Origin: a virus
Length of the DNA: 34,865 nt
IMG/VR virus record: IMGVR_UViG_3300008516_000158
Span: 1 to 34,865 of that record
Direction: 5' to 3' (one strand)
A program made the translations under genes and the position numbers. This document shows positions 4,981 to 28,786 of the stretch, piece after piece (position 1 is the first letter of the stretch; each line of letters starts with the position of its first letter). Under the pieces are notes generated by a model. The model worked only from the letters and a program-made list of their open reading frames with translations, searched no databases and was not told where the DNA came from.

Positions 4981-7020
4981 ATGGAAAACCGAAAGCCGAA
5001 CCCTTCCCAAAATAAACAGAACCCACGATACCGCGGCGGCCGAAGACTAAAACCACTTTCGCGTAGATACCAAAGCGACGCGGGCAATATCCGGACCGTG
5101 GTCGGCGTCACGGGCTTGAAGCATATCGGCGGCCGCATTCGCGAAGAATACCTGAACGCAATCAAAAACTGGTCAACCGAAGTCAAGCTATACCTGGAAA
5201 TGAGGGACGACCCTATTATCGGGGCCTTGACTGACGCGATTAAACTTCCCCTTCAGGCCGCTTCCTTCGACGTCGAATCGGCCCCAGGGGGAAGCCCCAA
5301 TGACAAAGCCGCCGCCGAATGGTTATGGGAAACAATGAACAACATGGAAAATCAACCCTGGATTTCCCATGCTGAAGACGCCCTGGAATGCCTGGACTTC
5401 GGGTTCGCCCTGGGGGAAATTATCCTGGACAAACGGGTTGACGGCCGCCTTTGGTTGAAGAACATTGACCCGCGCGGCCAGGAAAGCTTGAACCGTTGGG
5501 AATATGAACCGAACGAACGGGACAAGCTTGTTTCCTTTATCCAGAATGACCCGAATTCTGGCGAACAATACACGGTTCCAATTGCGAAATGCGTACATTT
5601 CCGGTATCGCGGCCGGAAGGGGAATCCCCAGGGTCATTCGATACTTCGGGCCCTGTATCGGCCTTATAAGTTCGCGCGCAACCTGGAAGACCTGGAAGGA
5701 ATCGGTATCGAACGCGACGTCGGCGGAATGCCTTATGCTAAACTGACCGACGACAACTTCGAACCCGCGGACCTTGACGACCTGAAGGCCGCGCTGAAGG
5801 GTCTTCGGAAGGACGAAGAAGTTTACCTTATCGCCCCGCCTGGCGTTGAAATTCAAGCTTATGGCGGCGGTTCGAAGATATACGACGTCAACGTGGTCAT
5901 TGACCGCTGGCATAAAATTACACTCATGCGCTTCTTCGCCCAATTCCTTATCCTGGGAATGGGGACCGTCGGGACGCAATCCCTGGTCAAGGGTTCCCAG
6001 GACTTTTTTACCCTGGTCCTGGAAGCGGTCCAGCGGTACCTTCTGGAAACCTGGAATCTTCAACTGGTCCCGTACCTTTTCCGGTTCAATGCCTGGACTG
6101 GAATATCGGGGTATCCGACAATCGTTTGGGAAAAACCAGGCAAGGTTGACCTGAACGCCCTTATCACCGCGCTGAATACGGCGGCCGGCGCGAAATTGCT
6201 TACGCCGACCGACATTGACGAAGACCACTTGCGCGCAATCGCGGACCTTCCGGAACTTCCGGAAGAAGAACGGGGGGCCCCGCGTGACGTTGAGCAACCG
6301 CCAATGCCAGGATTATTCGACACGCCCGAAGCTGGATTGAAGGAAACCAGTAAACGGATTAACCGCCTGGAACATAGCTTGTCCGAATTGATAAGGAACC
6401 TTCAGGATAAGACGTTCAAGAAAATGACGCCTGAAGATTGGGGCAAAGAATACGAAGGGGACTTGCCCCATTGGGCGACCGATAAGACCCCGTCCGCCTT
6501 CGCCCAGGATTACGTCAAAAAACTGAAGGCGGCCAACGTGAAGTCGGTCCTGGAAGTCGGTTGCGGCAATGGCCGCGATTCGATATTCTTCGCGGAAGCG
6601 GGCTTCAAGGTAACGGGTGTTGACGTGGTTCCGAAGGCCGTCGAAATAGCGAAGAATAACGCGAAGGAAGTCGGCGTCAAGGTTGATTTCCGGACGGCCA
6701 ACGCGGAAGCATTACCGTTCGCCAATGAAAGCTTCGACGCGGTTTATACCTTGTCCGTCCTTCATTCGACGAATATCAACCGAAGCTTCAAGGAACTTTC
6801 CAGGGTATTGAAGAAGAACGGACAAGCCTTCATTTATATTTATTCGAATACCCAAAAGGTTTCGGGCGAAGTGGATACGACCGCGACGCTGGAAGAATTT
6901 ATCGCCTTAATGAAAACATCGGGCTTGACCATTCAGGACCTATACACGGACCAGGAAGAAGATTTCGACGAATTCGGGGAAATGCACAGGGTATTCGTCA
7001 CTTATGGGAAGAAGGAATAA
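4981..7020 (+). CDS. Portal protein fused to a C-terminal SAM methyltransferase
   Basis: A 679-aa protein with two unrelated parts. Residues 1 to about 455 match the DUF935/Mu gp29-type portal: EMRDDPIIGALTDAI, DPRGQESLNRWE and RGRKGNPQGHSILRALYRPY are typical core segments, and the length is close to a complete portal. A predicted coiled-coil linker (about 455-480, NRLEHSLSELIRNLQDK) leads into a complete class I methyltransferase (about 482-679). Motif I is VLEVGCGNGRD (about 523-533), the acidic ribose-binding residue lies in VTGVDVV, and SFDAVYTLSVLH is motif IV. No stop, frameshift or internal Shine-Dalgarno separates them, so both should be made as one chain. A ring of 12 copies would place 12 methyltransferases at the portal vertex. 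Substrate unknown. ATG 4981 follows GAAGGGGG by 6 bases. Confidence 0.9.
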   Translation: MENRKPNPSQNKQNPRYRGGRRLKPLSRRYQSDAGNIRTVVGVTGLKHIGGRIREEYLNAIKNWSTEVKLYLEMRDDPIIGALTDAIKLPLQAASFDVESAPGGSPNDKAAAEWLWETMNNMENQPWISHAEDALECLDFGFALGEIILDKRVDGRLWLKNIDPRGQESLNRWEYEPNERDKLVSFIQNDPNSGEQYTVPIAKCVHFRYRGRKGNPQGHSILRALYRPYKFARNLEDLEGIGIERDVGGMPYAKLTDDNFEPADLDDLKAALKGLRKDEEVYLIAPPGVEIQAYGGGSKIYDVNVVIDRWHKITLMRFFAQFLILGMGTVGTQSLVKGSQDFFTLVLEAVQRYLLETWNLQLVPYLFRFNAWTGISGYPTIVWEKPGKVDLNALITALNTAAGAKLLTPTDIDEDHLRAIADLPELPEEERGAPRDVEQPPMPGLFDTPEAGLKETSKRINRLEHSLSELIRNLQDKTFKKMTPEDWGKEYEGDLPHWATDKTPSAFAQDYVKKLKAANVKSVLEVGCGNGRDSIFFAEAGFKVTGVDVVPKAVEIAKNNAKEVGVKVDFRTANAEALPFANESFDAVYTLSVLHSTNINRSFKELSRVLKKNGQAFIYIYSNTQKVSGEVDTTATLEEFIALMKTSGLTIQDLYTDQEEDFDEFGEMHRVFVTYGKKE

Positions 7021-24433: not shown

Positions 24434-24835
24434 ATGATTATTTGCGAATCTGAATTCGAAACGCCCGACCCGAACGACCCCGAAATCGCCTTGACCGAAG
24501 TGGATTACTACGCCTGGATACCACAGCCCGCGGCCGTACCCAATCACCGACTTTCACTACGGTACCGATTCGCGACCGGCCAGTACGAACTATATCGGAA
24601 ATATGCCAGAACCCTCATAGCGGCTACTGACAACGTAGTGCTTATCCAGCACAAGGCCGACGGCGACGAACAAGTCGTCTTCGCTGACAAGGACCTGGAA
24701 AAAGCGATAGAATATGCTAGTACCCAAACCTTGAAATATCACGGGTACGAATCGAAGGACCAGGTATGTACCCATGAAGGCCGCGGTCGCGCCTTCGGTT
24801 GTAAAGTATCAAGAGGGGGGGAATCAACAAAATGA
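24434..24835 (+). CDS. Hypothetical protein
   Basis: A 133-aa protein with an acidic N-terminus (ESEFETPDPNDPE), aromatic beta-rich middle (DYYAWIPQPA, LSLRYRFATGQYELYRKYAR) and a helical C-terminal part (DKDLEKAIEYASTQTLKYHG). The last four codons overlap the Toprim gene (ATGA), so the two are translationally coupled. No family recognised; coupling suggests it may work with the Topo VI-A-like protein. Confidence 0.6.
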   Translation: MIICESEFETPDPNDPEIALTEVDYYAWIPQPAAVPNHRLSLRYRFATGQYELYRKYARTLIAATDNVVLIQHKADGDEQVVFADKDLEKAIEYASTQTLKYHGYESKDQVCTHEGRGRAFGCKVSRGGESTK

Positions 24836-25695
24836 AGTACGAACAAACAGTCACCGCCGTCAACCGGATAATCGGTCAATATACGATACCGCTTACACTT
24901 CGTCAGATTTATTACCGATTGGTTGTCGAAATTCTAATCCCGAATCTTCGAAGCGCGTACAATGGGCTTTCGGCCCAACTGGTCAGGGCGCGTGAAATGG
25001 GCGAAGTTGACGAAAGGCGAATCGTTGACCGTTCGCGGTCCATTGACGACCGCGCCTTCGATAGTCCGACCGCCTTCCTGGAAGCGGCAATCTGGACCAC
25101 AGAAAACCGCTTCTTCCATCGTTACTGGACGACCCAGGGCGTTTATTGCGAAGCCTGGGTCGAAAAGGACGCCCTTTCCCAGGTAATCGCGGGGGCCGTG
25201 GAAGAATTGAATACAATCGTCGCCCCGTCCAGGGGATATTCCAGCTATTCATACGTCAGCGATGCCGTCCGCCGGTTCCAGAAAAACCGCGGGGACGCCG
25301 AACGCGTCGTCATACTCCACTTCGCCGACCATGACCCTTCCGGCCTGGACATGACCCGTGACCTTCGGGACCGCTTCAACGCTTATTCCCGCGGATTCTC
25401 ATTCAGCGTCGAAGTGAAGCGAATCGCCTTATCCTTCGACCAGGTCCGCCAGTACGACCTTATCCCGAATCCGACGAAGGTTACTGATTCGCGGGCGGGC
25501 GGTTACATGGCCCGATACGGCGACGAATGTTGGGAACTGGACGCAATCGAGCCCGACGAACTGGTCCGCCTGGTCCATGAAGCCGCGGAAGTCGAAGTCA
25601 CGGATTGGGACGCCTGGAACGAATTGAAGGACCAGGACGAAAAGGAACGGGAAGAAATCCGAAAGGCAATCGAAGAACTGAAGGATAAGTATTAA
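24832..25695 (+). CDS. Topo VI subunit A/Spo11-like Toprim protein
   Basis: A 287-aa protein with the two-domain layout of type IIB topoisomerase A subunits. The N-terminal winged-helix part has LTLRQIYYRL; Tyr28 of IYY aligns with the catalytic tyrosine of Spo11/TopoVIA (K/R-R-[DE]-[IV]-Y-Y). A Toprim domain follows with Glu111 in EAWVEKD and the metal-binding HFADHDPSG (Asp166, Asp168). DRSR at 66-69 and YMARYGDECWELDAI are typical of the phage/bacterial branch. It is shorter than TopoVIA (about 360 aa). No B subunit or GHKL ATPase is encoded here, so it may nick or break DNA or unlink it with host partners. It is located in the early region before the replication initiator. Overlap with the upstream gene and a downstream hairpin mark an operon end. 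Confidence 0.8.
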   Translation: MKYEQTVTAVNRIIGQYTIPLTLRQIYYRLVVEILIPNLRSAYNGLSAQLVRAREMGEVDERRIVDRSRSIDDRAFDSPTAFLEAAIWTTENRFFHRYWTTQGVYCEAWVEKDALSQVIAGAVEELNTIVAPSRGYSSYSYVSDAVRRFQKNRGDAERVVILHFADHDPSGLDMTRDLRDRFNAYSRGFSFSVEVKRIALSFDQVRQYDLIPNPTKVTDSRAGGYMARYGDECWELDAIEPDELVRLVHEAAEVEVTDWDAWNELKDQDEKEREEIRKAIEELKDKY

Positions 25696-25707
25696 GCCAT
25701 TATCAGG

Positions 25708-25733
25708 GGCCCCAGGGTCGAAATCCTGGGGCC
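25708..25733 (+). terminator. Weak terminator/attenuator after the Toprim gene
   Basis: A perfect 9-bp stem GGCCCCAGG/CCTGGGGCC (25708-25716, 25725-25733) with loop GTCGAAAT but only TTT following. Likely partial termination or 3'-end protection. Confidence 0.6.
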
Positions 25734-25778
25734 TTTGCCGGTTGATATGGGGAATATCAAAAAGGGGGTTGAAAAGCA

Positions 25779-25934
25779 ATGGAAATAACCTGGGAAAGTA
25801 TCGGTTTATTGTTCCTGGTCCTGGTCGTCGGGTCCTTCATTGCGGCGTATATTGACGTCGCCCTGGAAGACCGGAAGCGACGCCGCGAACAAGCCGAATG
25901 GGAAGAATTACAGCGAAGGAGAAAGGTGCAATGA
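25779..25934 (+). CDS. Small single-span membrane protein, 51 aa
   Basis: A 51-aa peptide starting MEITWESIG, then one hydrophobic helix (LLFLVLVVGSFIAAYI, about 10-25) and a long charged helix (EDRKRRREQAEWEELQRRRKVQ). Positive charge after the membrane segment predicts N-out, C-in topology. Ribosome site AAAAAGGGGGTTGAAAAGCA. It overlaps by four bases (ATGA) with the pilin-like peptide, so both are likely made together. Candidates: holin/pinholin, superinfection-exclusion or pilus-interference factor. No family recognised. Confidence 0.65.
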   Translation: MEITWESIGLLFLVLVVGSFIAAYIDVALEDRKRRREQAEWEELQRRRKVQ

Positions 25935-26032
25935 AGGGAATAACGTTTATTGAAGTCCTGATGTTCATTGCTATATTAGGCATACTGGCCGCCGTGGTAA
26001 TTCCCAACTTAATTCTATTGTTTTGGGATTGA
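25931..26032 (+). CDS. Pilin-like minipeptide with type IV prepilin signature, 33 aa
   Basis: A 33-aa peptide that is almost only a type IV pilin N-terminus: leader MKG, then ITFIEVLMFIAILGILAA, with Pro and Asn soon after. If cut after Gly3 by prepilin peptidase, the mature peptide has Ile1, the invariant Glu5 and Pro22, exactly as in type IVa pilins (FTLIE...IP). It ends LILLFWD and has no globular pilin domain. Such a peptide could insert in the inner membrane, be processed by PilD, and poison or modulate pilus assembly, for instance to block superinfection by pilus-dependent phages. It overlaps the upstream membrane gene (ATGA), and its stop codon lies in the -35 of promoter P2. Function is inferred, not known. 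Confidence 0.75.
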   Translation: MKGITFIEVLMFIAILGILAAVVIPNLILLFWD

Positions 26033-26058
26033 CAAGGGCGATACATAGGTATTACAAT
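26029..26058 (+). promoter_or_regulatory. Early promoter P2
   Basis: TTGACA (26029-26034), 18-base spacer, TACAAT (26053-26058). Shares TTGACAAGGGCG(A/G)TACATA with promoter P1 at 23233. Drives the coiled-coil, multi-zinc and OB-like genes; its leader contains a TGGGGA/TCCCCA hairpin (26066-26085) followed by AAATCTAAACG and the ribosome site. Confidence 0.75.
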
Positions 26059-28756: not shown

Positions 28757-28786
28757 TTGACATTGCCGACACGACGGCGTTACAAT
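28757..28786 (+). promoter_or_regulatory. Promoter of the ribbon-helix-helix gene
   Basis: TTGACA (28757-28762), 18-base spacer, TACAAT (28781-28786). The dyad at 28788-28802 lies across the expected start site, so this promoter looks repressible. ATTGACGG-type spacing equals that of P1, P2 and the portal promoter. Confidence 0.8.

Follow-up and report, generated by a model that had tools for sequence, protein, structure and literature searches.

What use would a phage have for a gene that encodes the membrane helix of a type IV pilin and then stops? The question is raised by a 33-amino-acid (aa) open reading frame (ORF) at positions 25931–26032 of the phage record IMGVR_UViG_3300008516_000158 from IMG/VR, whose 34,865 bases constitute the window analysed here. 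The phage encodes a Terminase_6 terminase, a Mu-type portal, two DNA methyltransferases, a topoisomerase-like protein, a replication protein carrying a DnaA-N domain and a RuvC-like resolvase. Neither an integrase nor a repressor turned up in the scanned part of the gene set, and the phage therefore need not be temperate. At its C-terminus the portal (4981–7020) is fused to a SAM methyltransferase domain (approximately residues 505–670), which is missing from the portals of relatives, 460 and 485 aa in length.

The ORF sits in a compact stretch in which all features lie on the forward strand. The gene for the topoisomerase-like protein (phrog_6247; 24832–25695) is followed by a strong, terminator-like hairpin with just three T residues (25704–25737, −27.4 kcal/mol). 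Between this gene and a promoter at 26029–26058 (TTGACA-18-TACAAT, 11/12) there are two ORFs only: one for a 51-aa protein that has a single membrane segment at its N-terminus and a tail of charged residues (25779–25934), and the 33-aa ORF, joined to it by the ATGA overlap that a first-pass annotation of this DNA had pointed out. A Shine–Dalgarno sequence, AAGGAG (25916–25921), precedes the ATG at 25931 by 9 nt; an in-frame ATG is also found upstream, at 25898, with no visible Shine–Dalgarno sequence, and would provide a longer leader only. The stop codon of the ORF overlaps the −35 box of the promoter, beyond which lies the gene for a 348-aa conserved phage protein (26112–27158) with a weak match to phrog_10477 exonuclease, for which a single-sequence search returned no relatives. 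A second near-consensus promoter of the same type (TTGACA-N18-TACAAT) is located at 28757–28786; both promoters recur at matching places in related phages, where the first borders a variable gene slot.

The peptide begins with the class III leader MKG (25931–25939), after whose Gly prepilin peptidase is predicted to cut, and continues as the mature sequence ITFIEVLMFIAILGILAAVVIPNLILLFWD. When residues are numbered from the one after Gly-1, then Gly-1, Ile1, Glu5, Pro22 and Asn23 fall in the type IV pilin register, and Ala11, Gly14, Ala17 and Ala18 likewise occupy pilin consensus positions; at position 1 the peptide has Ile in place of the Phe found in most pilins. Of the features that define Pfam N_methyl (PF07963), the ORF displays a leader ending in Gly, Glu5 and hydrophobic residues 1–24, and lacks the C-terminal globular domain: the stop codon falls eight residues past Pro22. 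The tail, LILLFWD, is hydrophobic and shows no transition to a charged pilin helix, and no pilin remnant exists in the DNA 3' of the ORF, where the conserved promoter begins at once. The coordinates, frame and sequence given in the first-pass annotation were exact, and the ORF does show the canonical residues, and the lack of a globular domain, that it described. The GC content of the ORF is 38%, compared with 54% for the whole window, a value that fits either recent import or merely the coding of a hydrophobic peptide.

The strength of the pilin signature was gauged with a position matrix (PSSM) built from 65 distinct pilin N-termini out of viral contigs. The N-terminus of the peptide reaches +40.8 bits, against −28.8 bits for the second-ranked of 35,886 stop-free 25-mers from the six frames of the window and 13.7 bits for the highest of 500,000 residue shuffles of the peptide. 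The sequences used to build the matrix all score at least 59.6 bits, which identifies the window peptide as an atypical pilin helix, with Ile1, Phe3 and Met8-Phe9. Its match to Pfam N_methyl agrees with this picture, as it just misses the curated cut-off (E = 7e-4, 19.5 bits; cut-off 21.2); the match to NCBIfam TIGR02532 is also under its cut-off. GspG and PilA models match the peptide alike, and its best PDB matches are true pilins, with Geobacter PilA-N first. Judged by its residues, the product appears to be a pilin mimic, a reading that is well supported, and Gly-1 and Glu5 suggest that it would be cleaved and N-methylated by prepilin peptidase.

Is the ORF a constant feature of its lineage? 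Five phages carry topoisomerases 66–92% identical to that of the window, although one record, L006, breaks off inside the gene; further relatives were found via alignment and via the terminase. The promoter motif of 26029–26058 is kept in L002, L003, L004, L005, L014, L177 and L179, and what precedes it differs. In L002 the slot holds a 54-aa protein homologous to the 51-aa one (70% identity over 47 aa) but lacks a pilin; it is occupied by a lipoprotein and a 137-aa protein in L003 and L177, by a 149-aa protein in L004, by small cysteine-rich ORFs in L005 and by other ORFs in L179, and it is practically empty in L014. The frame conservation in related phages on which the first-pass annotation had staked its proposal thus failed within the lineage, the 33-aa ORF being absent from all seven relatives that show the slot. 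An N_methyl match resembling it was found in none of 45 related records, many of which are fragments. The stretch, with the topoisomerase gene as its upstream border and the gene for the 348-aa protein as its downstream one, is an accessory-gene slot, and for this reason the absence of the pilin, a singleton there, from relatives is no argument against function. The notion that the pilin and the 51-aa ORF form an obligate pair was rejected, as L002 harbours the 51-aa homologue without a pilin.

Relatives and a donor of the sequence were also sought further afield. The patterns MKG-x-T-x-IEV and GITFIEVL disclosed no tiny pilin in viral contigs, and GITFIEVL, used in genome contigs to look for a donor host pilin, returned unrelated frames and full-length pilin-like proteins only, none of them close. 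A tblastn search of the peptide against phages gave no match at E = 10, for which the low-complexity filter is possibly responsible. The slot region showed no DNA similarity to phages, and a search for the host via the terminase yielded no match in genome contigs.

A degenerate pilin pattern returned at least 119 matches in viral contigs. Among the 119 listed, lengths after Gly extend down to 25 residues and approximately eight closed ORFs have 50 residues or fewer after Gly; the two shortest are found in phiAS5 and PX29, both phages of Aeromonas. Of 129 N_methyl matches in eight cellular genomes, none lies in a stop-to-stop frame shorter than 60 aa. The search methods behind the two counts differ, so that the greater frequency of short pilins in viruses is an indication and not a measured enrichment. 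The viral matches also include a group of pilin-like phage proteins of 65–90 aa that share the motif C-x2-GYKF ... G-x-GV-x-C, C-terminal to the helix (L191, L227, L291, L195, L187, L261, L264, L186, L233 and L353); a looser form of the motif occurs in Xanthomonas phage X1.

Helix-only pilins recur in nine Aeromonas T4-like phages (Straboviridae), namely Aeh1, PX29, phiAS5, phiWae14, Ah1, AsFcp_1, AsFcp_2, AsFcp_4 and avDM12-TAAL, all of which harbour an ORF of 27–31 aa between nrdB and nrdD. Two are annotated: GenBank describes PX29 CL89_gp038 (31 aa) as 'similar to N-terminal part of fimbrial protein (pilin)' and Aeh1p044 (28 aa) as 'similar to N-terminal sequence of bacterial secretion protein pilin'. 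In the other seven phages (L345, L354, L355, L356, L357, L358 and L359) the ORF, of 27–28 aa, is unannotated, the AsFcp_1 record being devoid of any annotation. Most copies share an ATGA overlap with the ORF before them; phiAS5 has a 3-nt gap instead, and PX29 is rearranged. Aeh1p044 scores 32.9 bits against Pfam N_methyl, above the cut-off. Synonymous divergence (pS) exceeds non-synonymous divergence (pN) in five of six pairs, for example 0.14 against 0.03 for Aeh1–AsFcp_2 and, in a crude ungapped count, 0.74 against 0.29 for Aeh1–phiAS5; the AsFcp_2–Ah1 pair runs in the opposite direction, on the basis of two changes. The ORF is conserved in the nine Aeromonas phages, where most pairs point to purifying selection, but the window ORF is a lineage singleton. 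A TTGACG box lies within approximately 15 bases downstream of the pilin stop in phiAS5 (L345), Aeh1 (L352) and phiWae14 (L357), like the window promoter. In the present analysis these ORFs are grouped as 'helix-only phage pilin (Aeh1p044-like)', and the window ORF shares their build: a phage-encoded pilin N-terminus, a short hydrophobic tail after approximately residue 22 and a stop.

The interpretation favoured here, with moderate confidence, is that the phage carries a helix-only pilin as an accessory gene, whose product would insert as a prepilin and interfere with the assembly of type IV pili or of the type II secretion apparatus; the purpose of the gene is probably to jam the host pilus machine. 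Insertion, cleavage and methylation of a pilin precursor read the leader and the helix, and a precursor without a headgroup should therefore still undergo all three. From translation onward we infer the following course. The product would insert into the membrane in N-in orientation, and host prepilin peptidase would cut and N-methylate it. Contacts made by Glu5 and the N-terminus could then let the processed helix join the pool of pilins at the PilC/GspF platform, where a helix devoid of headgroup and lower helix might block loading, or give a weak filament that stops growing. Such an inhibitory product would reduce either piliation or type II secretion, and fewer pili would exclude other pilus-dependent phages or keep progeny from sticking to the infected cell.

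Several other explanations deserve scrutiny. The ORF could be the 5' end of a host pilin gene, captured by recombination and persisting as a functionless fragment, an origin suggested by its low GC content and by its absence from every relative that shows the slot. This is improbable: there is no pilin remnant downstream, where the conserved promoter follows immediately, the tail remains hydrophobic in place of a charged helix, a Shine–Dalgarno sequence and ATGA coupling are present, and helix-only forms are conserved in other phages and unseen in the eight cellular genomes. Chance resemblance in a generic membrane peptide of the lysis or holin-like kind merits almost no credence, although the product is small and hydrophobic and adjoins another small membrane protein, as shuffles of the same residues stay far below its pilin score; moreover, we know of no role for Gly-1, Glu5 and Pro22 in holins. 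It is also very unlikely that the ORF is untranslated and that its DNA matters solely as the upstream part of the promoter. The promoter does overlap the stop codon and is kept in relatives without the ORF, but there it does without any of the 98 bases before it, and a pilin helix is not what a random frame would encode, as the matrix scores of the shuffles illustrate.

An unlikely alternative is that the product engages the pilin machinery otherwise, occupying the pseudopilus of type II secretion or of competence, or keeping prepilin peptidase busy, and does not poison the motility pilus. The phages of the parallel family infect Aeromonas, which depends on type II secretion, and the signature is common to pilins and pseudopilins, as the equal GspG and PilA matches illustrate. 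The sequence does not distinguish these systems; on the other hand, the tiny phage inhibitors known so far, PfsE, Tip and Aqs1, act on type IV pili (PMC8764522). The helix-only pilin reading has to accommodate the singleton status of the ORF in its lineage, its scores under the Pfam and NCBIfam cut-offs and its GC content. In its favour are a motif far above chance with true pilins as best PDB matches, a Shine–Dalgarno sequence of its own together with coupled translation from the conserved gene for a membrane protein, and a location in an accessory slot that is filled differently from relative to relative. Independent recurrence at the same nrdB–nrdD place in nine Aeromonas phages, short closed pilin ORFs in viruses as opposed to none in eight cellular genomes, and the precedent of PfsE lend further support.

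The first-pass claim that a minimal pilin decoy was undescribed goes too far: such ORFs are annotated in Aeh1 and PX29 and lie unannotated in seven more phages, and no paper describing any of them was found. Judged from titles and abstracts, there was no paper, family or function to be found for helix-only phage pilins, which are already known solely as remarks in two GenBank records; phage pilus inhibitors as such are known. With the window, this unexplained set gains a phage lineage not represented before and a divergent sequence. It is a tentative proposition, falling a little short of probable, that unrelated phage lineages repeatedly cut a host pilin down to its membrane helix, which after processing acts as a decoy and poisons the assembly of type IV filaments, and that these decoys represent an undescribed class of inhibitor. 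The phage proteins already known to block type IV pili bind either the motor, as Tip and Aqs1 do, or, like PfsE, the platform. If true, a decoy of the subunit would add a third mode of pilus blocking and represent the smallest conceivable pilin; it would also allow one to study how a pilin helix that has no headgroup is recognised by the platform. Culturable systems for such work exist in the Aeromonas phages, in most of whose genomes the gene is unannotated.

How does the window peptide compare with known systems? The Aeromonas phage ORFs resemble it in their leader ending in KG, a pilin helix to approximately residue 25 and the lack of a globular domain. They differ in belonging to Straboviridae, in their nrdB–nrdD site, in an upstream ORF that encodes an unrelated 87-aa protein, in a canonical FTLIEL start and in a tail a few residues shorter. 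A pilin N-terminus is also common to the phage families phrog_3433, phrog_13280, phrog_10597 and phrog_11263, whose models, in contrast, span 59–127 positions with sequence past the helix. Geobacter PilA-N ('Geopilin domain 1 protein', a short type IVa pilin) is the closest solved pilin and a natural one without a globular head, but its listed chains of 61–90 aa have a long helix past residue 25 and derive from a bacterial filament gene. The first-pass annotation's remark that phages encode small pilus inhibitors is borne out, by analogy, by PfsE (PA0721/Pf1 orf30), a 30-aa inner-membrane protein of Pf phage that binds PilC and stops twitching (PMC8764522). PfsE is a tiny single-helix phage protein of the inner membrane, N-in, as is predicted for the window peptide, whose suggested target is likewise the PilC platform; unlike this peptide, PfsE carries a YxWGW motif and no pilin signature. 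Homology between the two was rejected, as size alone is similar and there is neither YxWGW in the window peptide nor any sequence likeness. The window peptide would thus be akin to PfsE in its effect, but would achieve it through mimicry of the pilus subunit.
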